In this document: positions 2,458-34,292 of the stretch, in pieces | Position numbering within the stretch: the first letter of the stretch is position 1 | How the letters are laid out: each line of letters opens with the position of its first letter | Source of the DNA: Rugalucina vietnamica | Taxonomy: Eukaryota; Mollusca; Bivalvia; Lucinida; Lucinidae | Assembly: GCA_964017185.1 (NCBI GenBank) | Contig: OZ024875.1 | Location: forward strand, 24,747,456 to 24,811,455 | Length of the DNA: 64,000 nt | Direction: 5' to 3' | Program-made: the position numbers and the translations under genes | Notes under the pieces: model-generated | Told to the model about the DNA's origin: nothing | The model's database searches: none | Seen by the model: only the letters and a program-made list of their open reading frames with translations

Positions 2458-3539
2458 AATAACACGGGGACCCAACTGTTAATCGTGATTATTGATGCGA
2501 CGTGGAATGTTAATGCATGCCATTATGAAGTTTCATATGCGTCGGCGAGTTCGTTACGAATGCGACGTTCCACATCCTCTGTCCTTGGACGGTAAGTACC
2601 ACATGTTTTGCTCTCGTGAAAATAAACAAAGCCAAGTTTACAAAATCGGCGTCCACTATGATCTTCAAAATTCTTCTATATTCCCACTTGAAGTCAATTG
2701 GAATACTTACGGCACTTGTGTTTTTCAGCTAATGGTTTATAAAGTTGACAGGTAGATACAAGATTGCCACGAATACACATTACATTCTTAAAGTCCTTTT
2801 GATTTTCTAATTCTTGGTCGTAAACTAAGAAGTATAACACAGTCATATAGGTGTCTTTATTGAAATATGTATCAAAATGGCTTTGTAAATGCACATTTAT
2901 CTACTGAGCGTGAAAAACAGTAAGATAAGTATCTTTTGTATGCATCGAAGATGAAGGTACATACTACTAGAAACAATGTATTTTTTAAATATGGAATGTA
3001 TGAAAAATATGAAATTTGAGAATTGAGGAGACACATCCAAAATAATGCATTTAAACAATCTTTCTGTCAATGCAGCAACAAGAAATAGCATATTTAAGAA
3101 ATAATTCAGTGTATGTATGTATGCCATATTTGTGTCTCTTATATACATTGTAATGATGCAAATCACAAAGGATAACCTCTGTTTATACATTGCATCTATG
3201 GATATTAGACATGTATGAGCATTTCCTTACCATCTATTTAGTGGATTCCCATTTGTTTATCAGACTTATTCAGATGTCAGATTTATTAGTCATCAGCAAT
3301 ATAGGGCATTTTATGTATCTGGTATTTTCTGTACAATCTGGAAAACAATTTGGCAACAATAAACAAGAAAACAAATTTTATTCTTTGTCTTTTATTGTCT
3401 TACCAACATTGACAACATAAAATAACAAGTTACAATAACTTAAAAAATGAGAATTTCCATCAAAACATGGATAGAAACCTTTCAATTGATTAGATTAAAG
3501 ATCAAAAGTTATTGATTTTTTTGAAGTTGAATAATAAAT

Positions 3540-6500
3540 GACAAAGTTATAACATTTTCAATTATTATCCTTAACTGCCTGTGCGCCGCACAGGTTTCAG
3601 GACTCAATTTTTTCGAAATTCAAAAATTTCAAGAATATACAGCAAAACAGGCATAAACACCTTTAAATTGATAAAATAAGATGAAAAGTGTTTAAATTTT
3701 GGAAATTGATCAACAGATGACAAAGTTACAACATTTTTCATTTTCACCACTAACTTCCTGTGCGCTGCACAGGTTTCAGGACTCAATTTTTCCAAATTCA
3801 AAATTTTCAAGAATATGCAGCAAATTCTGTACTGACACCTTTCAATTGATGAAAAATGATAAAATCTTTTTAAATTTTGAAAATTGATCAATAAGTGACA
3901 AAGTTATAACATTTTCCATTTTCATCCCTTAAAACCTGTGCGCCGCACACGTTAAAAGACTGAAAAATTTCAAAATTCAAAAATTTCAAGAATATACAGC
4001 AAAACATGCTTAAACTCCTCTCAATTGATGAGATAAGATGAAAAGTGTTTAAAATTTGGAAATTGATCAATAAATGACAAAGTTATAACATTTTCATTAT
4101 CACCCCTAACTGCCTGTGCGCCGCACAGGTTTCAGGACTCAATTTTTTCCAAATTCAAAAATTTCAAGAATATGCAGCAAATTCTGCACTGACACCTTTC
4201 AATTGATGAAAAATGATAAAATCTTTTTAAATTTTGAAAAATGATCAATAAATGACAAAGTAATAACATTTTCCATTTTCATCCCTAACTGCCTGTGAGC
4301 CGCACAGGTTTCAGGACTCATTTCTTCCAAATTCAAAAATTTCAAGAATATGCAGCAAATTCTGTACTGACACCTTTCAATTGATGAAAAATGATAAAAT
4401 CTTTTTAAATTTTGAAAATTGATCAATAAGTGACAAAGTTATAACATTTTCCATTTTCATCCCTTAAAACCTGTGCGCCGCACACGTTAAAAGACTGAAA
4501 AATTTCAAAATTCAAAAATTTCAGGAATATACAGCAAAACATGCATAAACTCCTTTCAATTGATGAGATAAGATGAAAAATGTTTAAAATTTGGAAATTG
4601 ATCAATAAATGACAAAGTTATAACAATTTTCATTATCACCCCTAACTGCCTGTGCGGCGCACAGGTTTCAGAACTCAATTTTTTCCAAATTCAAAAATTT
4701 CAAGAATATGCAGCAAATTCTGCACTGACACCTTTCAATTGACGAAAAATGATAAAATCAGTTTAAAAATTTTGAAAATTGATCAATAAATGACAAAGTT
4801 ATAACATTTTCCATTTTCATCCCTTAAAACCTGAGCGCCGCACAGGTTATAAGACTCAATTTTTTCCAAATTCAAAAATTTTAAAAAATTAGATGAGATA
4901 CGATGAATTTTTTTTTAATTTTTGCAAATTGATCAATAATTTTAATTTTTGCAAATTGATCAATAAATGACAATGTTAGAACTTTTTCCATTTTCACCCC
5001 AAACTGCCTCTTTTAAAAGGACTCATTTTTTTCAAAAATCATAAATTTTAAGAATATACAGCAAAACCTGCATTAACCCCTTTCAATTGATGAGATAAGA
5101 TGAAAAGTTTTAAAATTTTGCTAATTGATCAATAAATGGCAAAGTTATAACATTTTACATTTTCACCCCTTTAGCACAGGCTAAAGGACTCAATTTTTTC
5201 GAAATTCAAAAATTTCAAGAATATACAAAAAGAAACTGTCTAAACCTCTTTCAATTGACGAGATAAGAGGAATAGTGTTTTTAAAATTTGCAAATTGATC
5301 AATACATGACAAAGTTCTAAAATTTTCCATTTTCACCCCTAACTGCCTGTGCGACGCACAGGCTTTAGGACTCAATTTTTGTACAAATTAAAAAATTTCA
5401 AGAATATACAGCAAAACCTACATAAACACCTTTCAATTGATGAGATAAGATGAAAAGTTTAAAAATTTTGCAAATTGATCAATAATTGGCAAGGTTATAA
5501 CATTTTCCATTTTCACCCCTTACTGCCTGTGCGCCGCACAGGCTTTAGGACTCAATTTTTTCCAAATTCAAATATTTCAAGAATAGACAGCAAAACCTGC
5601 ATAAACCCCTTTCAATTGATAAGATAAGATGAAAAAATTCTTAATTTTGGAAATTGATCAATAAATGGCAAAGTTATAACATTTTCCATTTTCACCCCTA
5701 ACTGCCTGTGCGCCGCACAGGCTATAGGACTAAATTTTTTCCATATTCAAACATTTCAAGAATATACAGCAAAACATACATGAACACCTTTCAATTGATG
5801 AGATAAAATGAAAAGTTTTTAAATTTTGGAATTGATCAATAAATGGTAAGGTTTTTCCATTTTCACCTCTAACTACCTGTGAGCTGCACAGGCTTTAGGA
5901 CTCATTTTTTACAAATTTCATAATTTCAAGAATATCAAGCAAAACCTACATAAACCCCTTTCAATTGATGAGATAAGATGAAAAGTTTTTACATTTTGCA
6001 AATTGATCAATAAATGACAAAGTTATAACATTTTCCATTTTCACCCCTTACTGCCTGTGCACCACACAGGCTTTAGGACTCATTTTTTTTTCAAAACTCA
6101 AAAATTTCAAAAATATACAGCAAAACCTGCATAAACCCCTATCAATTGATAAGATAAGATGACAAGTTTTTACATTTTGCAAATTGATCAATAAACGGTA
6201 AAGTTATAACATTTTCCATTTTCACCCCTAACTGACTGTGCACCACACAGGCTTTAGGACTCATTTTTTTTCAAAATTCAAAAATTTCAAAAATATACAG
6301 CAAAACCTGCATAAACCCCTATCAATTGATAAGATAAGATGACACACAGGCTTAAGGACTATATTTTTTCAGAATTCAAAAATTTCAAGAATATACAGCA
6401 AAACCTACATAAACCCCTTTCATTTGATGAGATAAGATGAAAAGTTTTTACATTTTGCAAATTGATCAATAAACGGTAAAGTAATAACATTTTCCATTTT

Positions 6501-7180
6501 CACCCCTAACTGACTGTGCACCACACAGGCTTTAAGACTCATTTTTTTTTCAAAATTCAAAAATTTCAAAAATATACAGCAAAACCTGCATAAACCCCTA
6601 TCAATTGATAAGATAAGATAAGTTTTTAAATTTTGCAAATTGATCAATAAATGGCAAAGTATAACATTTTCCATTTTCACCCCTAACTGCCTGTACGCCG
6701 CACAGGCTTTAGGACTCAATTTTTTCCAAATTTAAAAATATACAGCAAAACCTACAAAAACCCTTTTCAGTTGATATGAGATATCATGATAAGTTTTTAA
6801 ATTTTGCAAATTAAACAATAAATAACATTTTCCAATTTCACCCCTAAATACCTGTGTGCTGTTTAACAACTCATTTTTTTTTTTAAATTCAAAAATTTCA
6901 AGAATATATTGCAAAACCTGCATAAACCCCTTTCAATTGATAAGATAATAAGTTTTCAAATTTTGGAAATTGATCAATAAATGGCGAAGTTATAACATTT
7001 TTTTAACTGCCTGTGTGGCACACAGATTTTAGCTCTCAATTTTTTCAGAATTCAAAAATTTCAAGAATATACAGCAAAACCTACATGAACACCTTTCAAT
7101 TGATGAGATAAGATTTATAAAAGTTTTAAAATTTTGCAAATTGATTTTCCATTTTCACCCATACTGACCCATAATTCAAG
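3540..7180 (+). repeat. ~178-bp AT-rich satellite array with 17-bp palindrome (left arm)
   Basis: About 20 tandem monomers. The palindromic box CCTGTGCGCCGCACAGG begins at 3578, 3757, 3935, 4113, 4292, 4470, 4649 and 4830, which is a 178-181 bp period. The rest of each monomer is very AT-rich, with conserved TTGATCAATAAATGACAAAG and CAATTGATGA blocks. Outer monomers form a three-monomer higher-order unit of 535 bp (variant pairs at 3935/4470 and 3888/4423). Inner monomers are more degenerate and some are truncated. Confidence 0.92.
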
Positions 7181-7496
7181 ATTATACAGCAAAAAGGTAC
7201 AAGTAGGCAAAGATCAGGAAAAGGCGCAATCAGAAAAAGATTCCCACTCCAAAAACCGAGGTGGGAAAAAAACCAAACTAACAATCAGGTACTTACTTAT
7301 ACCATGAAACATATCGTAAGCCGAATGAGCAGCTATTTTCCCAATAGGTGGCCACTCAGTTACCTTAACTTAACTAAAAATATGAAAACATACATAAGGC
7401 GCCAACAGCACAAAAAATGTTGTACACCAAGACATAAAACAAAAAGAACCACCACAGAAGTATCGACTTGGAACGATCAGTAACACAAAGTTACTG
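7181..7496 (-). repeat. insert in the satellite related to 25,948-26,016
   Basis: This non-satellite block interrupts the array. Its first ~65 bases (about 7183-7248) are the diverged reverse complement of 25,948-26,016 (shared GCGCCTTTTCCTGATC on the other copy), so it is a dispersed repeat. The remainder (7250-7490) is not recognised. Confidence 0.5.
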
Positions 7497-7649
7497 GCAA
7501 AACCTGCATAAACCCCTTTTAGTTGATGAGATAAGATGAACAGATTTTAAATTTTGCAAATTGATCAATAAATGGCAAAGTTATAACATTTTCCATTTTC
7601 ACCCATAAACTGCCTGTGCGCCGCACAGGCTTTATGACAGGCTTTTTAT
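7497..7649 (+). repeat. resumed satellite monomer
   Basis: One satellite monomer, with the palindromic box at about 7613-7629, ends where the next element begins. The rest of its sequence reappears at 11,076. Confidence 0.8.
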
Positions 7650-10600
7650 TAGCTCACCTGAGCCGTTAGGCTCACAAGGTGAGCTTATAGGATGGCCATG
7701 ATCCGGCGTCCGTCGTCGTCCACCATTTTCAAAGATCTTCTTCTCTGAAACCGCTTGGCCAATTAAAGCCAAATTTTATATGAAGCATCTATGTGAAGGG
7801 GGAACCAATGTGTTTATAAATAATCCAGGTCACATGACCAAGATGGCAGCCATGCCCATATATGGTAAATACCCTTCAAAAATCTTCTCCTCTGGAACCG
7901 GTGGACCGATTTCAACGAAACTTGGCATGAAGCATCGGGGACTAGAGTACTACAATGTGATTATAAATTATGACCTTTGGATGACCTTGACCTATTTTAC
8001 AGCAAGGTCAACATAGGTCGCCCATGCATTTGAATGGGGGAAATTGTTAAAATGTCATTTGAAAGGCAAATTTTGCAGGAAATGGGCAAATGGACTGAAG
8101 GTAGGTAATTCTGAAAAAAAAAATTGGACCCCAGGGTTGGTCTGCCCACACCCCGGGGCAATATACATGTATATTACAAAAATATTCAAAGATCTTCTCT
8201 GAAACCACTTGGCCAATCAAAGCCAAATTTTATATGAAGCATCTACACTGAAAAAAAGTTATAAGAGGCCACTTTTCAAACTCATTTTTTGTAACTAAAC
8301 CATGTTCAAAATTGCACGATTTTTAGTCTAAAGACGTGTCTTTCAAGTAAGTAAAGTTCCAAAGTGTTCACAAATAATTTTCTTTCACTAAACGCGATTT
8401 TGGAGTAAAAATGCAAAAATCAATGTTTCTGAATAAAAAAATTGATAAAGCACAACATTAATTGAAATTATGAGCGGGTGTCATCAAAGGGGCTCTTCCG
8501 GCTTGGAAAAACATCAAACATTCGAATTTTCTCTACTGGTAGACTTTCTGCGCATTTTTAAAAATCGCTAATTTTGAGATTTTTTGAAAAATTCATCAAT
8601 GTGCCTCTTATACATGTTAATCGCTATTAAATTCACTTGATGAAGCCTGGAAATGAGAGATATAACCCGAGTGAGCAATTTTAGACTATTTTCGAGGACA
8701 AACAGGCCACGGCTGACGCACACTTCCGGTTTCAATGCCAATTTTTAACGAACAAAATAACGAAATTTATGGACGATATTTTAAATTTTCAAAGTTTATC
8801 AGAGTCTAGTATTATACCTTAATACTCACTGAAAATTTCAATTCCATACTGCTGATAATAATGCAACCAGAGATGAACAAAGTTTGTATGCAAATTGCAT
8901 ACAAAAAGCTGAATTCATGTTATTCATGCTGCTGTCTTCTTGCATGTACAAAACAGAAACGAAGATTCTTATTGCAGCAACACTTTTGACTTAATTTTAT
9001 CTTGCATCATGGTAGTCAGTAGCACTTTCAAATAAATTAAAATGTAAAACACAACGTCATAATATGACATTTAATTTGATGATAATAAAGTGTGATTTTC
9101 GAAAAGAGGGTACCTTTACTCATGCTTCGACTGCGTGAGACATATCACGCATTTTGGAATGCAGACACTCTCAGAGCCACTGTTAGACATTGGTTTATTA
9201 ATTTGATCATGAATTTTAATTGATCGTAATTTACTTTCTGAACTAGAAGAAAAAATATGAGGTGGCCTCTTATAACTTTTTTTCAGTGTATAGTAAGGGG
9301 GAATCAATGTGTTTATAAATAATCCAGGTCACATGACCAAAATGGCCGCCATGCCCATATATGGTAAAAACCCTTCAAAATTCTTCTTCTCCAGAACCAC
9401 TGGACCGATTTCAACGAAACTTTGCATGAAGCATCGGGGACTAGAGTACTACAATGTGTTTATAAATTATGACCTTTGGATGACCTTGACCTATTTTATG
9501 GCAAGGTCAACATGGGTCGCCCATGCATTTGAATGGGAAAAATTGTTAAAATGTCATTTGAAAGGCAAATCTTGCAGGAAATGGGCAAATGGACTGAAGG
9601 TAAGTAATTCTGAAAAAAAATTGGACCCTAGGGGTGGTCTGCCCCCACCCTGGGGCAATATACATGTATATTAAAAAATATTCAAAGATCTTCTTCTCTG
9701 AAACCACTTGGCCAATCAAAGTCAAATTATATATGAAGCATCTGTAGGAAGGGGGAATCAATGTGTTTATAAATAATCCAGGTCACATGACCAAGATGGC
9801 CGCCATGCCCATATATGGTAAAAACCCTTCAAAATTCTTCTTCTCCGGAACCACTGGACCGATTTCAACGAAACTTGGCATGAAGCATCGGGGACTAGAG
9901 TACTACAATGTGTTTATAAATTATGACCTTTGGATGACCTTGACCTATTTTATGGCAAGGTCAACATAGGTCGCCCATGCATTTGAATGGGAAAAATTGT
10001 TAAAATGTCATTTGAAAGGCAAATCTTGCAGGAAATGGGCAAATGGACTGAAGGTAGGTAATTCTGAAAAACATTTGGACCCTAGGGGTTGGTCTGCCCC
10101 ACCCTGGGGCAATATACATGTATATTACAAAAATATTCAAAGATCTTCTTCTCTGAAACCACTTGGCCAATCAAAGCCAAATTTTATATGAAGCATCTAT
10201 AGGAAGGGGGAATCAATGTGTTTCTTAATAATCCAGGTCACATGACCAAGATGGCCACCATGCCCTTATATGGTAAAAACCCTTCAAAATTCTTCTTCTC
10301 CGGAACCACTGGACCGATTTCAACGAAACTTGGCATGAAGCATTGGGGACTAGAGTACTACAATGTGTTTATAAATTATGACCTTTGGATGATCTTGACA
10401 TATTTTACGGCAAGGTCAACATAGGGCGCCAATGCATTTGAATGGGGAAAACTTTTAAAATGTCATTTTAAGTGAAAGTCTTGCAGGAAATGGGCAGTGG
10501 GACTGAATATTAATGATTCTGAAAAAAATTGGACCCCAGGGACTCATTTGCCCCTGCCCAGGGGCATTATACATGTATATTACCATAATATTCAAACATC

Positions 10601-11075
10601 CTTTCCTCTGAAACCGCTTGGCCAATCAAAGCCAAATTTCATATGAAGCATCTATAGAATGGGGGAATCAATGTGTATATAAATAATCTAGGTCACATGA
10701 CCAAGATGGCCGCTATTCCCATATATGGTATAAAACATTCAAAAATCTTCTTCTCCGGAACCGGTGGACCGATTTCGAAGAAACTTGGCATGAAGCATCG
10801 ATGACTCAAGTACTACAATGTATGTATAAATCATGACCCTGTGATGACCTTGACTTATTTTAAGGCAAGGTCAACATGGGTTGCCTATGTATTTGAATGA
10901 TTAAACTGTTAAAATGTCATTTGAAGGGAAAAACTTGTATGGACAGTATATTGATTATTCTGAAAAAAAAAATGGCCCAAGGGCTTCATCTGCCCCTATA
11001 CTGGGACTATTTTCTATAGCATTCGTATATACAGCAGATCTCAGGTGAGCGTTTACAGGACCATTGGTCCTCTTG
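7650..11075 (+). mobile_element. TCE-1: HINE/pearl-like tandem-core element inserted in the satellite
   Basis: It begins T|TAGCTCACCTGAGCC with a hairpin (AGCTCACC...GGTGAGCT) followed by GATCCGGCGTCCGTCGTCG, and ends TCAGGTGAGCG...AGGACCATTGGTCCTCTTG|T. The core contains about five units of ~454 bp (anchors near 7,839, 9,327, 9,781, 10,240 and 10,694). Satellite sequence is continuous across the element (CTTTTTATT | TTTTTACAAATTC), which fits T|T insertion. Subterminal GCTCACCTGA inverted repeats, 3' hairpin, tandem core and T|T target are the known architecture of Helentron-associated non-autonomous elements; the class assignment is inference. Open frames here (such as those reading TKMAAMPIYGK) are repeat artefacts. 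Confidence 0.75.
8246..9288. mobile_element. Tc1/mariner-type MITE nested in TCE-1
   Basis: It has 27-bp perfect terminal inverted repeats (CACTGAAAAAAAGTTATAAG... and complement) and TA on both sides (8244-8245, 9289-9290). Removing it restores the TCE unit sequence (CATCTA|TAGTAAGGGGGAA). TA duplication and CACTG ends fit the Tc1/mariner superfamily. Length is 1,043 bp with no recognisable transposase. Confidence 0.85.
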
Positions 11076-11126
11076 TTTTTACAAATTCAGAAATTTCAAG
11101 AATATACAGCAAAACCTGCAATTACA
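11076..11126 (+). repeat. satellite remnant beyond TCE-1
   Basis: Sequence matching the satellite block AATTTCAAGAATATACAGC continues directly after the TCE 3' end and then stops. This marks the inner edge of the left arm. Confidence 0.7.
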
Positions 11127-12215
11127 TTTAAACATTCATAGAGTTCCAATTTGCATGTTTGTTTATGACTGTGTCAGTTCCAGGTCACTTTTGCACCAAG
11201 CGAAGGTCTTGTCAAGTCTTCATAAAGAGTTCTTGTTTTTCAGCTGCCAAATGAGTGTGAATCAAACTGTCCAGACTGGCCCTGACTGTTTGCAACACAT
11301 GTTCAACAAGTAAGGAAATGTTGAGAAAAGACGCTGAATGTTTCTTTTGTAAAAATTGAGCCACATCATGAAAAAATCAGATTTTTTTTTCATATGTGAA
11401 AACAGACACAGATCAGCTTAGTGCGGACAGCTTAGTGCTCCACAGCTGACCAGCGCTGTTGTTCTGAAATGAAAATCTGAAATTTCAAGCTTCTAGCATT
11501 CTTTTTGTGATTGTATAGGCCTTTTTGTGTTTTACATGGTTGGAAATTTTCTCATTATGTTGCTCAATTTATCTTGTGCAGTTCTTCTGAGGTCTCTTCT
11601 GCTGTGTCTGGGCATGTACCCTGTAAAAAGAAAAAATATTGTACTCCTTTATTACCTCATCACATACAAAACTGTATAGAAACACTACGATAAGTTTTCA
11701 CTCTTGTTCGATTTTTTGGCCCTTGGTCTTCATTAGGAAAACAAAAATCTTATTCTCCAACTAAGTGGCATCTATACTGAATTTCATAGGCATTGTATAT
11801 GTAGTCAGGGGTGACATCACATCATTTCCTGCTAAGGCAATGTCAAATTGGTGTAACACCAAATGATGTGAGGTCATCTTCCGCTGAAATCTCTCTGCCT
11901 ATCAAGAGCACAAGTTCAACTGATACATCTTTTTATAAAAAAAAACAAAAAACATATAAAATTTTAACAAGAGTGGAAAATTATCATAGTGTTTATCAGC
12001 TATTCCCTCCGGAATTTTCATTTGAGAATATGTATAGAAACAGCTGATGTATTATTTTTTCTGTTATTCTTGAAACTACTGTGCACTATCTGAAACAGAC
12101 TTGGTAGTACAAACTTCTGTTGCCTGGGTAGTGATCAGTCTGATTATGTTATAATAAATCTGCATAACAGTGAGGCTTGTAATTATGAGCTTGATTCTAA
12201 TATGGGGAGTTAAGC
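11127..12215. other. mostly unique DNA with one dispersed hairpin-repeat copy (11,340-11,560)
   Basis: Bases 11,340-11,560 (GAGCCACATCATGAAAAAAT ... CAAGCTTCTAGC) are a diverged copy of the repeat at 63,460-63,690 and around 59,550/60,550. The rest has no recognisable gene. The ORF at 11,811-12,047 has no family features. Confidence 0.4.
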
Positions 12216-12320
12216 TTTATGATCTTGCTCAAGGACACAACTCAACTATAAAGGCGTTTGAACCAAGGACCTATATGTGCTTACAAGCTCGTAACAAAGA
12301 CCTTAGCAGTTGATCTTCAC
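12216..12320 (-). repeat. degenerate tRNA-like SINE fragment
   Basis: On the minus strand GGTTCAAACGCC resembles a B box, and the flank (complement of TTGCTCAAGGACACAAC) is the common tail of degraded tRNA-type repeats. A second stretch with the same CTCAAGGACACA motif lies at 12,531-12,590. Both are very diverged. Confidence 0.3.
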
Positions 12321-13172
12321 TAAAGTTGCATGGTTTACCTTCTCAGTTGATCTGTATTTATCTTCACTTTTCCTTCCATGTTAGTAATAACAGTAATTGT
12401 GTGTCAGTGTTCTCCCTGTGTAACGGCAGAGGCTGTCTTGGTAATAGTCCAAGTATCTCCTTTTACCAACCATTTTCCCTTCAACTTGAGGATCTGATAA
12501 TATGTATCAAAATATGGGAGTTAATATGCCTTGCTCAAGGACACAGCCTGAACCTGGTGACAATTTGGTTTGAAGCCAACAATTCAGAATCTGATGCATT
12601 GATGCTATTCAAACTGACACACCAGACTGGAGGAATGCATAAACCAGAAGACCAATGACCTTCTCTTTGTGAAAATTTTGCTAATATATACCACATGTAT
12701 GTGTGCAGTGTCTCGCGGAAGTGGACCAAGGAATTTAAGTGGAACAGATTGAAGCCAAGCTAGCTGATATAGCTGTGAAGCCAAGCTAGCTGATATAGCT
12801 GATCTATGCAAGTTGAAGCCAAAGAATAAAATTCTTATATGTGATAGAATATTATATTTGGTATTGACCTCAAAAAGTAAATATTTTCAGTGTTTGTACT
12901 TACCTAATCATTTGTGAAATCAGCATTCTTGCCAGACATACATGAAGAGTATATTTTCTTATCATTTTTCTTGACACCATTCTTCTAATGCTGTCACAAA
13001 TGTAGCACCTTGTGTTATTTGGCATCCGCTACCTACAAGTTAACGTGAGAAATAACTTTCAACTTACGTCACTTTAAATGATATTCTAGCCAAGGAATTA
13101 CCAGGATTTCTTTAAAAAATAAATGTTTTATTTCTTCATAAGCCTAAGGAGATTTTATCTGCCTAGAGGAAA
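12321..13172. other. unassigned DNA with a 2x short duplication
   Basis: A GAAGCCAAGCTAGCTGATATAG unit is present twice in tandem (about 12,752-12,803). The 110-codon frame at 12,326-12,658 overlaps degenerate repeat sequence and shows no domain. Confidence 0.3.
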
Positions 13173-13219
13173 CCAGAGGACCATTGGTCCTGAGAACGCT
13201 CACCTGAAGCCGGATCTTG
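13173..13219 (-). mobile_element. isolated TCE 3' terminus
   Basis: CCAGAGGACCATTGGTCCT then GAACGCTCACCTGAAGCC, which is the 3' hairpin and subterminal repeat of the TCE family on the minus strand, with no core attached. It is a solo end or a severe deletion. Confidence 0.7.
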
Positions 13220-13618
13220 TTACAATTATAACTGCAACTGCAGTCTGCATGGTTAAATACTACGGAGTCATGTTGGTCCGAAAATTGGCAGGCGATTGGA
13301 TTTGCTTCTGTTGAGAATGACAACGTGCTTGATGTGCAGGCTATATTTCACCTTCTTTAATCCACTGTCAATTTTTCTACTGTCAGTATGAGTGATGCCT
13401 GTAAAATTGCAATTCAAAGCACAACTGCACTTTCAAGCACATCACTCAAATTTCAGAAAACATTTTCAGATGCTACCAGTGGAAAACACATCTATTGCTT
13501 TAATATGTATATAGCCTCCACACCAAGCACTTGGTCACTCATAGCATTAGTTTCGCAAAATATTATTTCAAATGCGAAATAGAGGCAGCTCCTGTGGCCA
13601 AATGGTTTATTAAAGAAA
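13220..13618. other. unassigned, ending in a SINE-head-like stretch
   Basis: Nothing is recognised until 13,582-13,612, where GGCAGCTCCTGTGGCCAAAT resembles a degraded A-box head of the SINE family seen at 54,805. TCE-2 abuts it. Confidence 0.25.
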
Positions 13619-18060: not shown

Positions 18061-18068
18061 CTTACGAC

Positions 18069-22914: not shown

Positions 22915-23060
22915 GTGACGTTACTTTGCGGCATTTGTGACGTCAGCTATCCCACAAAGCAGCGTTAGACGGTGAAATGTCGTTTTAGCGCACAACAAAC
23001 GTAATAAGTGTGTGTTAATACCAGCATTACAGTCAAACATTTGGCGGGATATCTGCAATG
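22915..23060. promoter_or_regulatory. CRE plus E2F-like motif cluster
   Basis: GTGACGTT (22,915-22,922), a perfect TGACGTCA (about 22,939-22,946) and TTTGGCGGGA (about 23,040-23,049, an E2F consensus) lie in a locally GC-richer patch just before TCE-5. No adjacent gene is identifiable. Confidence 0.25.
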
Positions 23061-23115
23061 CAATGGCGGAAAGCTGAACGATATCAACGGTTTCAGCAAC
23101 ATTTATTCCGTTTAT

Positions 23116-24638
23116 TAGCTCACCTGAGCCGTTAGGCTCACAAGGTGAGCTTATAGGATGGCCATGATCCGGCGTCCGTCCGTCCGTCCGTCCGTCCGTC
23201 TGTCCGTCCGTCCACAATTTCAAAGATCTTCTCCTCTAAAACCGCTTGGCCAATCAAAGCCAAATTTTATATGAAGCATCTATAGGAAGGGGGAACCAAT
23301 GTGTATATAAATAATCCAGGTCACATGACCAAGATGGCCGCCATGCCCGTATATAGTAAAAACCTTTAAAAATCTTCTTCTCCAGAACCCAAAGGCTTAG
23401 GATCTTGAAACTTAGCATGTAGCATAAGGGACTCAAGGTCCACAATGTGTATATAAATCATGACCCTGTAATGACCTTGACCTATTTTACGGCAAGGTCA
23501 ACATAGGTTGCCAATGCATTTGAATGGGGAAAACTTTTAAAATGTCATTTAAAGTGAAAGTCTTGCAGGAAATGGGCAGTAGGACTGAATATTAATGATT
23601 CTTGAAAATAAAATGGACCCCAGGGGCTCATGTGCCCCCACCCCGGGGCAATATACATGTATATCTCCATAATATTCAAACATCTTCTCCTCTGAAACCG
23701 CTTGGCCAATCAAAGCCAAATTTTATGTGAAGCATCTATAGGATGGGGTAACCAATGTGTATATAAATAATCCAGGTCACATGACCAAGATGGCCGCCAT
23801 GCCCATATATGGTAAAAACCCTTCAAAAATCTTCTTCTCCGGAACCGGTTGACCGATTTCAACGAAACTTGGCATGAAGTATCGATGACTCAAGTACTAC
23901 AATGTATATATAAATCATGACCCTGTGATGACCTTGACCTATTTTACGGCAAGGTCAACATAGGTCGCCAATGCATTTGAATAGGGAAAACTTTCGAAAT
24001 GTCATTTAAAGTGAAAGTCTTGCAGGAAATGCACAGTAGGACTGAATATTAATGATTCTGATAAAGATTGGTCCCCAGGAGCTCATCTGCCCCAACCCCG
24101 TGGCATTATACATGTATATTTCCATAATATTCAAACATCTTCTCTGAAACCACTTGGCCAATCAAAGCCAAATTTTATGTGAAGCATCTACAGGATGGGG
24201 TAATCAATGTATATATAAATAATCCAGGTCACATGACCAAGATGGCCGCCATGCCCATATATGGTAAAAACCCTTCAAAAATCTTCCTTCTCCGGAACCG
24301 GTGGACTGATTTCAAAGAAACTTGGCATGAATCATTGATGGCTAAAGTACTACAATGTGTATATTAATCATGATCCTGTGATGACCTTGACCTATTTTAC
24401 GGCAAGGTCAACATAGGTTGCCAATGCATTTGAATGGGAAAAACTGTTAACATGTCATTTAAAGGGAATAAATAAAATAGAAATTGGCAAATGGACAGAA
24501 TATTGATTATTCTGAAAACAAATGGCCCAAGGGCATCATCTGCCCCTGCACTGGGGCTAAATACCATAATATTCAAACATGTTTATTGGCATATGTAGCA
24601 GATCTCAGGTGAGCGTTTACAGGACCATTGGTCCTCTG
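23116..24638 (+). mobile_element. TCE-5, well preserved, about 3 core units
   Basis: 5' end TAGCTCACCTGAGCC, then a (TCCG)n stretch at 23,172-23,216, then three ~455-bp units anchored by CATGACCAAGATGGCCGCCA at about 23,324, 23,779 and 24,234. 3' end TCAGGTGAGCG and hairpin AGGACCATTGGTCCT. Open frames here are repeat artefacts. Confidence 0.8.
23172..23216 (+). repeat. (TCCG)n microsatellite inside TCE-5
   Basis: Nine or so GTCC/TCCG repeats with one TCTG variant, an expansion of the GTCCGTCG motif present near the 5' end of all TCE copies. Confidence 0.9.
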
Positions 24639-24651
24639 TGTGTTAGAATCA

Positions 24652-24773
24652 AAATAGATCAGCTCAAGTGCGTGAATTGTTGAGTAATAATTCACTGTTT
24701 GGAGGTCAGTTGTAAAGAAGATCAAATCACGAGCGCTATTACTCAACAATTCACTGCTAGAGCTGATCTATTT
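24652..24773. mobile_element. 122-bp fold-back MITE
   Basis: AAATAGATCAGCTCAAGT and GTGAATTGTTGAGTAATA on the left are mirrored by TATTACTCAACAATTCAC and AGAGCTGATCTATTT on the right. A second copy with only the left half lies at 34,653-34,744. Confidence 0.75.
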
Positions 24774-25504
24774 CTTAAACAAACAACTGTCCATACACCA
24801 ACTTCCAGAAACTGCCTTTTTCAAAATCTTCCTTTTTCCGAAACACCTCAAGAAAAAATGACCATGACACCGTTTGCATTCTAAGTCTTAAAACGTGCTG
24901 CATTTGAAAAGTTTTGAAAATCAGATAACAATTAAGAGTTTTATGCAGAATATAAGGGCTTTTTCCATTGTGAAATTTCAGCAAGGGAAGTAACTATTCA
25001 TGGATAAAACTAATAATGAACAGATAAAAAATTATGACATAAACCTTTTGTACTACTAAAACATTAAGGCTCAGGAATTGCTGAATTGCCTTCAACCAAA
25101 TTTGACTGACAACATTTTGAATAGATAACCACAATACAAACGAAGTTAATTAAAACTTAATTTCATATCAATGCTTCTGTCTTTTCAGGACAACACGCCT
25201 TCCTAGAACACATTTCTTGCTCTTACAATATGCTTGTACTGCCATGTAGCTAGTGGGCCCAACATGATGGCCCCATCTTTTTCAAAGCCCCAGGAAGATC
25301 CCAGAGTTTGCAGAAGGATCAGGTAACTTAAGTAAATTAAATTCACTGAATTTACTTGCAACTTGCAACAATAACCTCATGAATCATTTGCAAAACCATC
25401 TCTGGTTATTTGTAATATTTTGTATCGATTCTTTATAGGAAAGAGCACACTTTGAATTAGATATGTGCATTTAAGAAGAACTAACTGTCACGCATATAAG
25501 ACTG

Positions 25505-25507
<3 letters not shown>
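24774..25507. other. no feature recognised
   Basis: AT-rich unique-type sequence; nothing I can name. Confidence 0.3.

Positions 25508-25549
<42 letters not shown>
25508..25549. repeat. (CA)21 microsatellite
   Basis: Uninterrupted CA dinucleotides. Confidence 0.97.
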
Positions 25550-25552
<3 letters not shown>

Positions 25553-26010
25553 ATGTGGGCATTCTCTTAATAATTGAAGCCACTCTGTTGTTGCAGGTAT
25601 CAAATATGGAGAGCACTAGTGAAGCCTGTAGAGTTTTCAACCATGATCATACAACATTTCATCTAGACACATTTAGGAGGGTGGAAGGTAACTATGTAGT
25701 CAGCAACATGAATTTGTAAATGAAAACTTCAGGTCGTCTGATGCATTCTATCATACTATTTTCTTGCTTATCAAAATGTGACATCATGTATATTTGCTGC
25801 TATTACTCAATTCATTGAGCAATGAAATTTTATCATAGAGGAATAGAAGCTTTTGAAAACTGCAAAGATAAGATTATTAATAATGACTGATTAGGCTACA
25901 TACACCTGATCTGTGCCTGCATTGTCACTCTAGCATGGACATTGCTGAAGGTATTTGGAGTGTGAATTTCTTTCTGATTGCGCCTTTTCCTGATCATTGC
26001 CTACCTGTAC
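25550..26010. other. unassigned; includes repeat shared with 7,183-7,248
   Basis: 25,948-26,016 is the inverted, diverged partner of the insert in the left satellite. The rest is unassigned. Confidence 0.4.
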
Positions 26011-26016
26011 CTTTTT

Positions 26017-26378
26017 CAGGGCTTGACATAAAGATTTGAGCAGCACTTGCCCGGCGGGCAAGCTGGATTTTATTGCAGCTTGCCCCCAAAGTTTTAAACA
26101 AACACTAGATTTTCGGCATATGGAGGTCATTTTTTACGTAAAAACGCTGAAAACTTCTGCTAGTGCAAAAACTGAGTGTAGACTGGTTCTTTTAGTGTGT
26201 GACTTAACTTTAAGATCCTTAAAGATCCAATGACCTAAAACTGAAGGGTAAATACAGGAGTTGATAATATGGGACCAATTTTTACTAGCCCGGCTGGCTA
26301 ACCGCTGGCAATTTCAACTTGCCCCCAGCAGTTTCAGCCCGAATAGGGCATTCGGGCACCCGATTATGTCAATCCATG
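26017..26378. mobile_element. hAT-like MITE (CAGGGCTTGACAT family)
   Basis: The left end CAGGGCTTGACATAAAG opposes ATTATGTCAATCCATG on the right, flanked by CTTTTT on both sides (26,011-26,016; 26,379-26,384). The interior has the GC-rich hairpin ACTTGCCCGGCGGGCAAGCT, which I know as common in widespread metazoan hAT MITEs. No ORF. Confidence 0.65.
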
Positions 26379-26489
26379 CTTTTTGCATCCCATGACATTA
26401 AAAGCACATTGAATGTATAATACATTATTTTAGAAGTTATGTAAATGATATTTAATGACACATGTAACTAGAATGGTAAAAGTAGGCAA

Positions 26490-27350
26490 CCAGCCAACCA
26501 TGCCCCTGGGGTCAAAAGTGGCCCCACTCCAGGGGTCATTAATAGCTCCCATAGACTTACAATGGGAAAAAAAAAATCTTCTTCTCCAAAACCACAAGGC
26601 CCAGAGCTTTCATATTTTGTGTGTAGCAATATATAGTAGTCCTCTTTAAAATTCCTGCTAACCATGACCCTGGGGTCAAAAATGGCCCCATCCCGGGGGT
26701 CACTAGCTCCCATAGACTTACAATGGGAAAACATGGGAGTTCCTCTTTATAAATCCTGCCAACAGTGTCTCTGGGTCCATACAGGCCACACACCAGGGGC
26801 ATCATGGAAAAAACATAAAAATCTTTTCCGAAACCACAAGGCCAAGAGCTTTCATATTTTGTGTGTAGCAAAGTATAGTGGTCTTTTTTATAGATCCTGC
26901 CAACCATGCCCCTGGGGTCGATACAGGCCACACCCCGGGTTCTTCATGGGAAAAACAATAAAAAAATCTCCAAAACCACAAGGCCTAGAGCTTTCATATT
27001 TTGTGTGTAGCAATGTGTAGTGTTCCTCTTTATAAATCCTGCCAACCATGCCCCTGGGATCAATAAAGGCCCTGCTCTGGGGGTCATTAGCTCCCATAGA
27101 CTTACCATGGGAAAACAAAAAGAAAATCTCGGAAATACAGGGCCCAGAGCTTTCATATTTTACATGTTTATAACCATAATATTCAAGCATCTCAGAAGCA
27201 GCTTGGCCAATAAAAGCCGAATTTTATAAGAAGCATTTTTAGGAAGAGGAAACCAATGTGTACATAAAAATCCACATGACCATATATGGTAAACCCCCAG
27301 CTACTTTTCTTTTGTCCAGATACTGTACTTGTTGACTCTCAGGTGAGGGA
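26490..27350 (+). mobile_element. TCE-6: short-unit tandem core with alternative 3' end
   Basis: Four or five diverged units built on ACCACAAGGCCCAGAGCTTT, TATTTTGTGTGTAGCAA, CCTGCCAACCATG and CCCATAGACTTACAATGGG. A short 450-type piece (27,165-27,290) follows, then GACTCTCAGGTGAGGGATCG and TTACCCTTGGGCTA. That end differs from the usual AGGACCATTGGTCCT hairpin and matches the inverted one at 54,435. The 5' end is not seen. Confidence 0.6.
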
Positions 27351-28605
27351 TCGTTACCCTTGGGCTATTTGTTTGTCTCCCAGCTTACTGTGATCAATAT
27401 TGGAACCCCCCGCACCCACCCCCACCCTGGATTATACATTTTTTCCTGGATTATTCATTATTTCCAATATTATTCATGTATAAGCTGTAAACCAGCAAAT
27501 CAGGCAAAAATAACATTAGGACATTATAGATTTTGGGAAAATGTTTTTGGTGAGGTCATCTGTTTTTATTTTGTGTACACAAGTACACAAAGGAGATTGA
27601 TGCTACTAAATCAATTTACTAGCAATTTAATAGATAAATTCATTTGGTATGTTTAAAAAAACCCACTCAAACTGATATTTGATGTGTAATTCTTCCTATA
27701 TTTGATCTATAGGCTAACTGGAGACAAAGCACAGCTGAGCTGTAAGGCAGGTAGCTGAAACAGCAACACTGGACAGTCATCTGATTCTATAGGTATATTT
27801 TTAACATAGTTTCTTAAAGTATGCACACATTATAACTTGCTTGCAACAAATGTTAGTCATGCCTTTGAAATAGTTGTAGCAGCTCCGACATCATATAACA
27901 TATAAGCTCACTGTTCAGTTTCCCAATATTGTTTGAGGCATAAATTGTGTCTAAAATGAAAATTAAACATTCGATACAAATAGAAAAGACTTCAACCTCC
28001 AAATAAAAATGCATCTAAATTATCTAATGAGTAACTACATGTTAGGTTTTCTTTGAAGGTTAACAACCCACCTTAATTTATTTATCATCATAATACTTAC
28101 CAACCTTTAAATACTTTATTCCAGCTAGAAGACCTAGAAAATCCTGTTACCTTACAAGTGGACTCAATTTTTGGTCAGAGTACATGTACTTCTACGAGAT
28201 ATCATCCCTGCAAACATTTTCATGTTTCATTGTGGTCAAGGAATATGCCATAATGCCAGCAGTGAAAAAGAAAAAAAAACTGTTAATTAAATAGATAAGG
28301 TTGATGTTTGTGTTTCAACTTTCAGGAATCTGTGGGGGGGACATTCAAGCAATGACATTTTTTTAGAATTTTCAAAAATACAAACAGTGCTCTGTAGTCT
28401 TGTGTAGTATACATGGGGTTATCGAGAAGCTTGTGGACAAACACAATAAAATTTACACACATCAATACATTTGTCTGAAAATTGATACGCATGTTAAAGG
28501 TTACTCTTACGAAATATGCTAAAAATTCCATGCAAATATCCAAAGAAATGCATAATTGGCATGTAATTACTTGATAGTATGTTGGTCAAGTTGCCGCATG
28601 TCAAA
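27351..28605. other. no feature recognised
   Basis: About 1.25 kb of AT-rich unique-type DNA; the short frames (27,360-27,656; 28,322-28,543) have no domain. Confidence 0.3.
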
Positions 28606-28609
28606 ATTC

Positions 28610-28830
28610 AAATGACGTTGCGACGTCAGTTTTCTCAAAGTATGCAACTGTGACGTAAAATTCTCGTCGTAAAATTCTCGAGAAGAGCATTTTTCATTTT
28701 CAGTGCACGAGCTCATTGTCCCAATGCAATGAGACGTCTACCAAAGCCATTAGGTCAACTAGTTATTATTAAATCTCATTCAATGACAGAGAGCCTATAT
28801 AAATGGACCTGTAACTCGGTGGATATTGTC
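28610..28830 (+). promoter_or_regulatory. CRE cluster followed by a TATA-like box
   Basis: TGACGTTG, CGACGTCAG and TGTGACGTAA lie at 28,613-28,657, with TATATAAATGG at about 28,797-28,807 140 bp downstream. The arrangement resembles a metazoan promoter facing right, but no coding exon follows before TCE-7 and the satellite. Confidence 0.25.
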
Positions 28831-29089
28831 CTGGCGCATAACTAACCACTCAATTTTCTTTCAAGTTAAATCATTACTACTAAAAGATCGAAAATAAAAC
28901 AAATATTTTATTCATAAAATGTCGAGACTGAATATGCAATCTCCGTAGAATGAGCCGCACACTGCAAGTGCAAAGCATCACTGTGCACTCATTTAAGAAA
29001 TTACAAACACCGCTAGGTAATTACAAATTTTGATGTGCGGCAACTTGTCGAACATAGCATTAATAAACTGCATGTTATTAAATCATTTT

Positions 29090-29273
29090 TAGCTCACCCG
29101 AGCCGAAGGCTCACAGGTGAGCTTATAGTATACCCATGATCCGGCGTCCGTCGTCGTCCACAATTTCAAAGATCTTCTTCTCTGAAACCACTTGGACGAT
29201 CAAGTTGAAATTTTATGTGTAGCCTCCTTGGGTAGTGGCATTGAAATTTTGTTAGCGATATTTTGGTCACATG
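29090..29273 (+). mobile_element. TCE-7: 5' terminus only, fused to the satellite
   Basis: TAGCTCACCCGAGCCGAAGG, a GATCCGGCGTCCGTCGTCG stretch and the first ~130 bp of a unit, ending at GGTCACATGATCAATTTGC, where satellite sequence takes over. The break lies in TGATCAA, a string also present in the satellite, suggesting deletion by short homology. Confidence 0.7.
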
Positions 29274-32200
29274 ATCAATTTGCAAAATTTAAAAACTCAT
29301 CATCTTATCTCATCAATTGAAAGCTGGTTATGCAGGTTTTGCTGTATATTTTTGAAATTTTTGAATTTGTAAAAAAATTGAGTGGTAAAAACCGCACAGG
29401 CAGTTAGCGGTGAAAATGGAAAATGTTATGTAACTTATTGATAAATTTCCAAAACATTAAAAACTTATCATCTTACTTCATCAATTGATAGGGGTTAATG
29501 CAGGTGTCTTTTTTTTTTAATTCAGCTTTACATCCCTTTCAAGATTCAGCTCATATGAGAAGGACCAATCAGTAGGTGGGCAAATACTGGAGAAAAAACA
29601 CCTCACACCCCCACCCCCGCAAGCAGATCTCTGTTCGTCTCACATGTGCCCAGTGCATGGCTCGAACCCACACCAGACACAACCGTGAGATGATCAAGTG
29701 TTAAAGAAACAGCACTCTTAACCGCTCGGCCACAGGGGTCGCTTTTATGCAGGTTTTGCTGTATATTCTAGAAATTTTAAAAAGGCTGTTAGGGGTGAAA
29801 ATGGAAAATGTTATAACTTTGCCATTTATTGATCAACTTGCGCAAAATTAAAAAAAAAAAGGAAAAAAAATCATCTTATCTCATCAATTGAAAGAGGTTT
29901 ATGTAGGTTTTGCTTAAATTCTTGAAATTTTTGAATTTCGAAAAAATTGAGTCTTAAAGCCTGTGCGGCGCACAGGCAGTTGCAGGGGTGAAAATGGAAA
30001 ATGTTATAACTTTGCCATTTATTGATCAGTTTGCAAAATTTAAAAAACTTTTCATCTTATCTTATCAATTGAAAGGGGTTTATGCAAGTTTTGCTGTATA
30101 ATCTTGAAATTTTTGAATTTGGAAAAATGAGTCCTAAAGCCTGTGCGGCGCACAGGCAGTTATGGGTGAAAATGGAAAGTGTTATAACTTTGCAATTCAT
30201 TTATCAATTCACAAAATTAAAAAAACTTTTCATCTTATCTCGTCAACTGAAAGGAGTTTACTGTTAAGTGATTTTTACTATATATTCGTAAAATTTTTGG
30301 ATTTCGAAAAGAATGAGTCCTAAAGCCTGTGGTCGCACAGGCAGTTAGGGGTGAAAATGGAAAATGTTATAACTTTGCCATTTATTGATCAATTTGCAAA
30401 ATTTAAAAACTTTTCATCTTATCTCATCTATTTAAAGGTGTTTATGTAGGTTTTGCTTGATATTCTTGAAATATTTGAATTTCGAAAAAATTGAGTCCTA
30501 AAGCCTGTGCGCCAGTTGCATGGGTGAAAATGGAAAATGTTATAACCTTGCCACTTATTGATCAATTTGCAAAATTTTTAAACTTTTCATCTTATCTCAT
30601 CAATTGAAAGGTGTTTATGTAGGTTTTGCTGTATATTCTTGAAATTTTTGAATTTGTACAAAAATGAGTCCTAAAGCCTGTGCGTCGCACAGGCAGTTAG
30701 GGGGTGAAAATGGAAAATTTTATAACTTTGTCATGTATTGATCAATTTGCAAAATTTAAAAACTGTTCCTCTTATCTCGTCAATTGAAAGAGGTTTAGAC
30801 AGTTTCTTTTTGTATATTCTTGAAATTTTTGAATTTCGAAAAAAATTTCACCCTGTGCTAAAGGGATGAAAATGGAAAATGTTATAACTTTGCCATTTAT
30901 TGATCAATTAGCAAAATTTAAAAACTTTTCATCTTATCTCATCAATTGAAAGGGGTTTATGCAGGTTTTGCTGTATATTCTTAAAATTTTTGATTTTTGA
31001 AAAAATTGACTAAAGCCTGTGTGGCGCACAGGCAGTTTGGGGTGAAAATGGAAAAAGTTCTAACATTGTCATTTATTGATCAATTTGCAAAAATTAAAAT
31101 TATTGATCAATTTGCAAAAATTAAAAAAAAAAATTATCGTATCTCATCTAATTTTTTTAAATTTTTGAATTTGGAAAAAATTGAGTCTTATAACCTGTGC
31201 GCCGCACAGGTTTTAAGGGATGAAAATGGAAAATGTTATAACTTCGTCATTTATTGATTATTTTTCAAAATTTAAAAAGATTTTATCATTTTTCATCAAT
31301 TGAAAGGTGTCAGTGCAGAATTTGTTGCATATTCTTGAAATTTTTGAATTTGGAAAAAATTGAGTCCTGAAACCTGTGCGGCGCACAGGCAGTTAGGGGT
31401 GATAATGAAAATTGTTACAACTTTGTCATTTATTGATCAATTTCCAAATTTTAAAAAGATTTTATAATTTTTCATCAATTGAAAAGAGTTTATGCATGTT
31501 TTGCTGGATATTCTTGAAATTTTTGAATTTTGAAATTTTTCAGTCTTTTAACGTGTGCGGCGCACAGGTTTTAAGGGATGAAAATGGAAAATTTTATAAC
31601 TTTGTCACTTATTGATCAATTTTCAAAATTTAAAAAGATTTTATCATTTTTCATCAATTGAAAGGTGTCAGTACATAATTTGCTGCATATTCTTGAAATT
31701 TTTGAATTTGGAAAAAATGAGTCCTGAAACATGTGCGGCTCACAGGCAGTTAGGGATGAAAATGGAAAATGTTATTACTTTGTCATTTATTGATCAATTT
31801 TCAAAATTTAAAAAGATTTTATCATTTTTCATCAATTGAAAGGTGTCAGTGCAGAATTTGCTGCATATTCTTGAAATTTTTGAATTTGGAAAAAATTGAG
31901 TTCTGAAACCTGTGCGTCGCACAGGCAGTTAGGGGTGATAATGAAAATGTTATAACTTTGTCATTTATTGATCAATTTCCAAATTTTAAACACTTTTCAT
32001 CTTATCTCATCAATTGAAAGGAGTTTATGCATGTTTTGCTGTATAGTCTTGAAATTTTTGAATTTTGAAATTTTTCAGTCTTTTAACCTGTGCGGCGCAC
32101 AGGTTTTAAGGGATGAAAATGGAAAATGTTATAACTTTGTCATTTATTGATCAATTTTCAAAATTTAAAAAGATTTTATCATTTTTCATCAATTGAAAGG

Positions 32201-32560
32201 TGTCAGTACAGAATTTGCTGCATATTCTTGAAAATTTTGAATTTGGAAAAATTGAGTCCTGAAACCTGTGCAGCGCACAGGAAGTTAGGGGTGAAAATGA
32301 AAAATGTTGTAACTTTGTCATCTGTTGATCAATTTCCAAAATTTAAACACTTTTCATCTTATTTTATCAATTGAAAGGTGTTTATGCCGGTTTTGCTGTA
32401 TATTCTTGAAATTTTTGAATTTCGAAAAAATTGAGTCCTGAAACCTGTGCGGCGCACAGGCAGTTAAGGATATAATTGGAAATGTTATAACTTTGTCATT
32501 TATTATTCAACTTTAAAAAATCAGTAACTTTTGATCTTTAATCTAATCAACTGAAAGGTT
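29274..32560 (-). repeat. ~178-bp satellite array (right arm)
   Basis: About 17 monomers in reverse orientation, with the box CCTGTGCGGCGCACAGG at roughly 178-bp steps. The 535-bp three-monomer unit appears again (variants at 31,612 and 32,147), placed at the outer side as in the left arm. Frames over this array are repeat artefacts. Confidence 0.9.
29508..29742 (-). mobile_element. SINE inserted in the right satellite
   Basis: On the minus strand: GTGGCCGAGCGGTTAAGAG (A box), GGTTCGAGCC (B box), CTTGCGGGGGTG, CTACTGATTGG, CTCATATGAGCTGAA, and a poly-A tail (poly-T at 29,508-29,518). The target duplication is TTAATGCAGGT / TTTATGCAGGT (29,495-29,505; 29,744-29,754), one difference. Confidence 0.85.
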
Positions 32561-33065
32561 TCTATCCATGTTTTGATGGAAATTCTCATTTTTTAAGTTA
32601 TTGTAACTTGTTATTTTATATTGTCAATGTTGGTAAGACAATAAAAGACAAAGAATAAAATTTGTTTTCTTGTTTATTGTTGCCAAATTGTTTTCCAGAT
32701 TGTACAGAAAATACCAGATACATAAAATGCCCTATATTGCTGATGACTAATAAATCTGACATCTGAATAAGTCTGATAAACAAATGGGAATCCACTAAAT
32801 AGATGGTAAGGAAATGCTCATACATGTCTAATATCCATTGATGCAATGTATAAACAGAGGTTATCCTTTGTGATTTGCATCATTACAATGTATATAAGAG
32901 ACACAAATATGGCATACATACATACACTGAAATATTTCTTAAATATGCTATTTCTTGTTGCTGCATTGACAGAAAGATTGTTTAAATGCATTATTTTGGA
33001 TGTGTCTCCTCAATTCTCAAATTTCATATTTTTCATACATTCCATATTTAAAAAATACGTTGTTT

Positions 33066-33800
33066 AGAATGAGTCATGGAAGAATTAGCATTTTTTGTGC
33101 TCTTACAAAAGTTATTTACGTCAATGCAGAAGCATAAGGAGCGCCTTTATCAAGCGCATATTGCATGGCGTCTTTTCCTTGTACTACATGAACTTCGTTG
33201 AGCGAGCTTCAAAGCATGTGCCACTCTTATTTTGAATGAGGTCACAGAATGGTTTTCTGATATAGCTTTGTCAACATTCTAGTGACTTCTTGCCTCGAAA
33301 CAGCAACACATTTTCGGGCATATCAGTGACATAGATATATGTTTTCTAACATTAAATGACCACTAAGGCTAAACCAAGTATAAATTGATCATTTAATATC
33401 GGTGGATCCATGCATTTTGATAAGCGGGGTGGGGTGGGGGGGGACAAAAGAATTAAAGGGATTTGTGCGGTTTCAGTCAGTTTTCCATGGGAATGGTGTG
33501 TTGTACAAGAACAGCGATCAACTATGGTTATTTTATTGCAGTTAGAAGAGTCTTTCGGGAGCCCTTTGAACCCTTGGCCCCCGCCTTGGCCTCAGGCTAA
33601 AACAACTTTCTCCAGCCTCTGCAAATGTTAATACAGTATAAAAACAGGGTTGACCCCTTTAACATGTATCTAGAAAATATTAATTGAAGAAAATGCATCA
33701 CTGTCTCCATATCGTAACATTTGCTATTTTATTTTACTGATTCATCGGTCTCAATCTTCCACGATGCATTTCTGTGTCGCATATTAAATTTTAACGAAAT
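33066..33800. other. 735-bp segment present only in the right arm
   Basis: Alignment of the arms breaks at TTGTTT (33,065) and resumes at CTACGATGCATACG (33,801), where the left arm has only ~25 bp. No terminal repeats or TSD frame it, so a deletion from the left arm is likelier than an insertion on the right. Contains a G-run (33,430-33,443). Confidence 0.6.
33116..33208 (-). pseudogene. 30-codon coding-like fragment, possibly ankyrin-like C-terminus
   Basis: The minus-strand frame between TGA (33,209-33,211) and TAA (33,116-33,118) reads NEVHVVQGKDAMQYALDKGA. The G-K-D-A-x-x-Y-A-L-D-K-G pattern is reminiscent of the end of an ankyrin repeat, but thirty residues are too few to be sure. No splice context established. 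Confidence 0.2.
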
Positions 33801-34292
33801 CTACGATGCATACGAAAGATGCTTATCTTACTGTTTTTCACGCACAGTAAATAAGTGTGCATTTACAAAGCCATTTTGATACATATTTCAATAAATACAC
33901 CATAAGACTGTGTTATACTTCTTAGTTTACGGTCAAGAATTAGAAAAACAAAAGGACTTTAAGAATGTAATGAGTTTTCGCGGCAATCTTGTATCTACCT
34001 GTCAACTTTATAAACCATTAGCTGAAAAACACAAGTGCCGTAAGTATTCCAATTGACTTCAAGTGGGAACATAGAAGATTTTTGCAGATCATAGTGGAAG
34101 CCGATTTTGTAAACTCGGCTTTGTTTATTTTCACGAGAGCAAAACATGGGGTACTTACCGTCCAAGGACAGAGGATGTGGAGCGTCGCATTCGTAACGAA
34201 CTCGCCGACGCATATGAAACTTCATAGTAGCATGCATTAACAATCCACGTCGCATCAATAATCACGATTAACAGTTGGGTCCCCGTGAATAA

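Follow-up and report, generated by a model that had tools for sequence, protein, structure and literature searches.

Giant foldback DNA transposons, very probably non-autonomous, with satellite-bearing inverted repeats in the bivalve Rugalucina vietnamica

Foldback elements whose terminal inverted repeats (TIRs) are filled with tandem repeats are an already known type of transposable elements, and most foldbacks belong to the Mutator superfamily (PMC4079207). In Tetris of Drosophila virilis, the TIR is composed of an outer flanking domain, tandem repeats of ~220 bp and an inner domain. The middle of Tetris is variable and non-coding, no autonomous copy has been found, and a short derivative, DAIBAM, has the same ends (PMC4079207). 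Galileo, a member of the P superfamily in Drosophila, has long TIRs, internal tandem repeats of ~210 bp in one of its groups and non-coding copies made of two TIRs (PMC3573991); a domain of its transposase binds sites in these tandem repeats (PMC3688188). Foldback elements are also named from sea urchins and, as FB, from Drosophila (PMC4079207). Here we describe a stretch of 64,000 nucleotides (the window) from the bivalve Rugalucina vietnamica (assembly GCA_964017185.1, contig OZ024875.1, positions 24,747,456 to 24,811,455), in which positions 2972-33064 very probably represent a giant foldback DNA transposon that is non-autonomous and belongs to a whole family of such copies. The element, further called the giant, ends in defined tips, inverted to each other, with 4-bp target duplications beside them; it has a paralogous empty site, its inverted repeats of ~3.3 kb bear satellite, and near-identical whole units are present elsewhere in the genome.

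The giant resembles Tetris in its outer domain, tandem repeats, variable middle without detected coding, a short copy with the same ends and the lack of any autonomous copy among those found. Tetris TIRs, however, reach at most 1.7 kb and its duplications of 8-10 bp suggested Mutator, whereas the giant has TIRs of ~3.3 kb, mostly units of 13-53 kb and duplications of 4 bp (PMC4079207). Long TIRs with tandem repeats and copies without detected coding are shared with Galileo, but Galileo has 7-bp duplications, TIRs up to ~1.26 kb and a known transposase, against 4 bp, ~3.3 kb and none found in the giant (PMC3573991). The anatomy is thus of the known foldback type, although an earlier reading of the window made from its letters alone (the sequence-only reading) had regarded it as no standard class; size and 4-bp duplication depart from the Drosophila foldbacks Tetris and Galileo.

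Two nested elements and the empty site

The sequence-only reading had proposed a single mobile unit of 31.8 kb, with exactly matching tips, AATAA on both sides, a collinear outer ~1 kb and a mirrored satellite. The window contains CACGGGGACCC once, at 2463, and the exactly complementary outer tip GGGTCCCCGTG once, at 34277; AATAA directly adjoins each of them, and a single satellite of ~179 bp runs in opposite orders in the two arms (Table 1). Collinearity does not hold for the outer ~1 kb. Its matching pieces, the first of ~490 bp at 94.9% identity and the next of ~630 bp at 98.4%, are separated by ~730 bp in the right arm and by 18 bp in the left one, and two nested elements therefore have to be distinguished. 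An inner border, absent from the earlier description, is formed by an inverted AACAAYGTATT tip with TAGA outside. Each arm of the giant (~3.3 kb) consists of a unique tip of ~480 bp and satellite monomers of ~179 bp, and the two arms, aligned over 3,304 columns, agree at 93.6%; the middle measures ~23 kb.

The outer element is small and common. An undisrupted copy at C2:6533520-6535252 (L009) is 1,733 bp long, with inverted repeats of ~490 bp and a 5-bp duplication TATAA. When the window's flanks of the giant are joined, they give one match of 1,740 columns to this copy at 99.0%, and in place of the two TAGA that border the giant in the window, this copy has a single one. It is thus a paralogous empty site for the window's giant copy. 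The window's small element is the older one, and the giant landed inside it. A non-autonomous giant with satellite-bearing long TIRs, as the sequence-only reading had it, therefore stands for the inner unit of 30.1 kb; the proposed borders, tips and 5-bp duplication were wrong for the giant, because all three belong to the small element. A genome search with the outer sequence (query 2463-3540; 40 of 1,210 candidates scored), suggested in order to see whether it occurs as two inverted copies or singly, splits in the same way into two elements at different places, nt 1-510 being the small element and nt 509-1078 the tip of the giant.

The 36-base tip of the small element has 637 + 642 = 1,279 genome matches (up to 3 mismatches; control, 0), and many of the tip matches listed are paired ~1.7 kb apart. 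Transib elements have a CAC tip, a 5-bp duplication and a RAG1-like transposase. A CAC tip and a 5-bp duplication (AATAA, TATAA) are present in both copies of the small element that were read; the longest frame of the undisrupted copy has 88 amino acids, and no transposase was sought in other copies.

Table 1. Positions of the two nested elements, their parts and dispersed repeats in the window
Feature	Position	Strand	Evidence
AATAA, left 5-bp target duplication of small element	2458..2462	.	seen directly outside tip
Small element (~1.73 kb), left piece, tip CACGGGGACCC	2463..2971	+	99.8% to L009, 511 columns
TAGA, left 4-bp target duplication of giant	2968..2971	.	single TAGA at same point of L009
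Giant, very probably a foldback transposon, 30,093 bp	2972..33064	.	empty site, tip census, duplications
Left tip domain, non-satellite, begins AACAATGTATTTTTTAAATATGG	2972..3449	+	
Left satellite array, ~16 monomers of ~179 bp, palindromic core CCTGTGCGCCGCACAGG	3450..6342	+	
Left arm (arm A) of inverted repeat	2972..6232	+	alignment with right arm
Middle domain, no coding detected in tested frames	6343..29782	.	
Right satellite array, mirror of left	29783..32586	-	
Arm B (right arm of inverted repeat), minus-strand tip AACAACGTATTTTTT	29788..33064	-	
TAGA, right 4-bp target duplication of giant	33065..33068	.	
Small element, right piece: ~730-bp middle and ~490-bp right inverted repeat	33065..34287	-	99.0% to L009, 1,230 columns
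AATAA, right 5-bp target duplication of small element	34288..34292	.	
Dispersed tandem repeats, periods ~450-466 bp and 150-300 bp	9289-10937, 23230-24468, 38860-40157, 44854-46598, 48541-49645, 55124-58329		

Matches to the satellite core CCTGTGCGCCGCACAGG run on past the left array to 7010. The middle domain holds dispersed tandem repeats, whose families (Table 1) are present both inside and outside the giant. A scan of the window against Rfam gave nothing at gathering scores.

The giant family and its sister

The 31-base tip pattern of the giant has 45 genome matches at up to 3 mismatches, 22 forward and 23 reverse, and its backward control has none; 43 of the matches are exact, two have one mismatch, and none has two or three. 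Tips were paired by coordinate order, which gives 21 convergent pairs on many chromosomes and leaves 3 tips unpaired; all tip counts hold for the stated patterns only. One pair spans 1,238 bp and the others 13,096-53,104 bp, with a median of 31,516 bp. Giant copies elsewhere begin at the inner AACAAYG tip and have different flanks. Target duplications were tested in 20 of the 21 pairs (both flanks read; C1:50.9 left out), and exact 4-bp duplications were found in 14 of them, compared with 2/380 among mismatched flank pairs; when the count is limited to the first 18 pairs, 12 are exact, with 1/306 in the control. The duplication is inexact in the remaining pairs, with 3/4 bases matching in five and 2/4 in C2:55.8.

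A 33-mer of the satellite has 251 + 330 genome matches (up to 2 mismatches; control, 0), and some of the matches listed are at loci without the giant's tip. One locus found in this way, C3:4.6, has inverted arms at 95.2% identity, a satellite 76-78% identical to that of the window and a related tip, AACAGCTTATTAATTTAAACTAGAATGTAT. A degenerate tip pattern has 70 matches (control, 1), composed of the 45 of the giant family, 24 of the sister type and a single tip at C1:94.5; the same 24 are recovered by a 36-base sister tip pattern, with 0 in the control. The sister family comprises 11 pairs and 2 unpaired tips, with lengths of 6,164-75,792 bp (median 33,819). Exact 4-bp duplications are present in 10/11 sister pairs and in 2/110 mismatched ones. 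Flanks matching over 5 bp were found in 0/20 giant and 0/11 sister pairs. Both families together contain 30 paired units of 13-76 kb and two short ones, with exact 4-bp duplications in 24 of the 31 tested; six of the seven inexact pairs match at 3/4 bases. By the Repbase tip rule (positions 1-11, one mismatch allowed), the two families are not joinable on tips alone, because 2-3 of these 11 positions differ.

Two sister copies deserve separate mention. The interval C8:31061874-31137665 is a possible sister unit of 75.8 kb, with an exact TAAA duplication and tips slightly different on its two sides. The copy of 6.2 kb at C9:37919725-37925888 (L059) carries in its arms, close to the tips, an extra self-complementary tandem repeat of 30 bp. 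An autonomous role for this copy was rejected, since the longest of its frames has 156 amino acids and is largely a 30-bp tandem repeat.

The manner of spread was followed on 20 arms of the giant family, aligned over up to 2.4 kb and assigned to side A or B by their position beside the shared middle; the means use the 17 arms with an assigned side (both arms of C6:33.7 and one of C7:31.9 left out). Mean identity is 98.9% among A arms (28 comparisons) and 98.7% among B arms (36), while A and B arms are identical at 97.0% within one element (8) and at 96.9% between elements (64). Same-side arms are closer between loci than the two arms of one element, and the units therefore spread whole. The arms had diverged before the burst, and their identities give no sign of homogenisation within the unit. 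The interiors are alike as well: a 53-kb copy on C8 covers 21,448 of the 22,629 bases of the inner part of the window's giant at a mean of 98.1%, counted in blocks of at least 94% identity and at least 250 columns, and the ends read of three other copies are identical to this part at 98.4-98.8% over 7.5-9.3 kb. Shorter copies (13.1 and 14.6 kb) are without stretches that the long copies have.

In an older subfamily (C7:31.9, C10:53.3), blocks stand mostly in the order of the window's interior, mostly at 84-92% identity and some at 76-80%. Because the interior blocks are kept largely in order, the large size would be older than the present burst. The ends behave differently from the inside: compared in steps of 150 bp with the left arm of the window's giant, the arm of C7:31.9 reaches 97-100% identity in the outermost seven steps and 60-85% in seven of the nine that follow, and the 470-bp tips of C17:26.6, C10:53.3, C7:31.9 and C6:13.6 are 98% identical to that of the window. 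More generally, subfamilies with interiors that mostly diverge by 8-16% or more have a near-identical outer ~1 kb in their giant arms (for example L029:1-1050), for which constraint or an exchange of ends from one subfamily to another may be responsible. The copy of 1.24 kb at C1:76.8, which has an exact TAAG duplication, is made up of two pieces of outer arm separated by ~26 bp; it may have moved at this length or shrunk afterwards. Judging from the alike outer ends and this short copy, the sequences read by the transposase would lie in the outer 0.5-1 kb.

Coding content and alternative explanations

If the family were autonomous, with its own transposase in some copy or split into many short exons, the present interpretation would change in its in-trans step alone, and the likelihoods of the alternatives are not mutually exclusive. 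The giant of the window has no stop-to-stop frame longer than 136 amino acids and the 53-kb copy none longer than 153; long frames are absent from the window copy, from the whole copies C2:55.8, C4:55.1 and C8:4.8, and from the listed parts of others. Of 83 non-tandem frames of at least 55 amino acids in 7300-29870 of the window, 23 were scanned against Pfam, and none matched at the cut-off, with a few weak matches at E 0.02-0.1. In 18 blocks compared between subfamilies (at least 300 columns and 82.5% identity), the 261 alignment gaps include 39 with a length divisible by three, and no block as a whole is biased in codon phase at p<0.05.

The long frames met inside two giant copies are foreign. 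The first case, a piggyBac frame of 594 amino acids in C3:20.7, was rejected as the family's own transposase, as it belongs to an element with TTAA on both sides. Its Pfam family has 40 genome matches, of which, judged by coordinates, the one in C3:20.7 alone falls within any of the paired units listed for the two families. This piggyBac-type element (L018/L019, element coordinates ~6490-9480) has an open transposase frame, and six other genome copies of it have open frames of 593-594 amino acids. The second case is C6:33.7, where frames of a long interspersed nuclear element (LINE) type, with endonuclease, reverse transcriptase and RNase H, lie at L021:4520-9605; they were rejected as a family gene, since they belong to the LINE and not to the giant. 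Room for a gene is left by the unread interiors of the sister giants and of the 46.6-kb and 75.8-kb copies, and by the 60 unscanned frames of the window. In sum, we consider an autonomous family unlikely.

Polinton target duplications are 5-6 bp, and those of the giant are 4 bp. A Maverick/Polinton or another virus-like giant element that has lost its genes would fit in size, as Polintons typically measure 15-25 kb and up to 40 kb, but Polintons and Terminons, of tens of kb like the giant, carry many genes and the giant has no detected coding (PMC6431247). With no match to polymerase, integrase, ATPase or capsid in the frames tested, and with arms filled by satellite, such an origin is very improbable. 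Equally improbable is a local inverted duplication or hairpin-like rearrangement without any transposon; an inverted duplication was the other alternative of the sequence-only reading. It can produce long satellite-bearing inverted arms, and pairs without an exact duplication would suit it; as an explanation of the family it is ruled out by whole units that recur as 21 convergent pairs on many chromosomes, with 4-bp duplications of their own at a rate well beyond that of the control. The A and B arms, separate lineages common to different loci, and the empty site also speak against it. The single 31.8-kb unit with CACGGGGACCC tips and AATAA duplication accounts for both of these features and is nevertheless ruled out, as its tips belong to the common 1.73-kb element into which the flanks join, and giants elsewhere start at their own tip without it.

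Several observations weigh against a giant non-autonomous foldback transposon. Exact duplications are missing in 6/20 giant pairs (C5:6.7, C2:55.8, C6:33.7, C17:26.6, C7:31.9, C6:13.6) and in 1/11 sister pairs. A paralogous copy of the small element, and not the empty allele of this locus, serves as the empty site. No transposase was found in the frames and copies examined, where introns could hide short exons, 23 of 83 frames were scanned and only some interiors were read. The best 300-bp window of one block has a codon-phase p=0.0024, uncorrected. Finally, no tip-like motif stands out above shuffles in the satellite monomer, which leaves the notion of extra binding sites unsupported here; within the monomer, conservation is only a little higher in the palindromic core than elsewhere (0.94 vs 0.90; 19th of 163 windows).

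Mobilisation, classification and meaning

For the giant as a non-autonomous foldback transposon, we propose that a transposase made elsewhere would bind the ends, probably within their outer 0.5-1 kb, cut the unit out and join it to the target through a staggered cut of 4 bp; in the window, this target was the small inverted-repeat element. The satellite monomers may either provide further binding sites or be carried along as passengers.

The features of foldbacks are present: long inverted repeats made largely of tandem repeats, a duplication of fixed length (4 bp) and a variable middle without detected coding. Drosophila FB and sea urchin foldbacks also have long inverted repeats of tandem repeats; they are much smaller and make longer target duplications, so that the giant shares their type of arms and differs in larger size and shorter duplication. 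Mutator duplications are ~8-11 bp and those of the P superfamily 7-8 bp, unlike the 4 bp found here. PiggyBac wants a TTAA target in every copy, and TTAA is present in 1/24 exact duplications of both families. Because of target duplication length, Mutator, P and piggyBac are excluded for the giant. Superfamilies with 4-bp duplications include Sola, Chapaev/EnSpm, Ginger and Academ. As no transposase was found, the mobilising enzyme and the superfamily are only inferred. No report of foldbacks of tens of kb was met among the results listed in literature searches, whose lists were capped and which had most subscription journals outside their reach.

It is possible, though we hold it for doubtful, that a cut-and-paste transposase routinely moves non-coding units of 30 kb, and perhaps of 76 kb, and that the two sister foldback families form an undescribed lineage of superfamily level which has escaped the usual size limit, perhaps via its satellite arms, by many binding sites or by pairing of the ends. 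Foldback-type elements are usually far smaller, and units of 13-76 kb look like a striking natural exception. The size ladder of 1.2-53 kb with the same tips presents a ready series for asking which ends and what length the transposase needs. The giants also show one route of satellite DNA through the genome, carried in mirrored arms.

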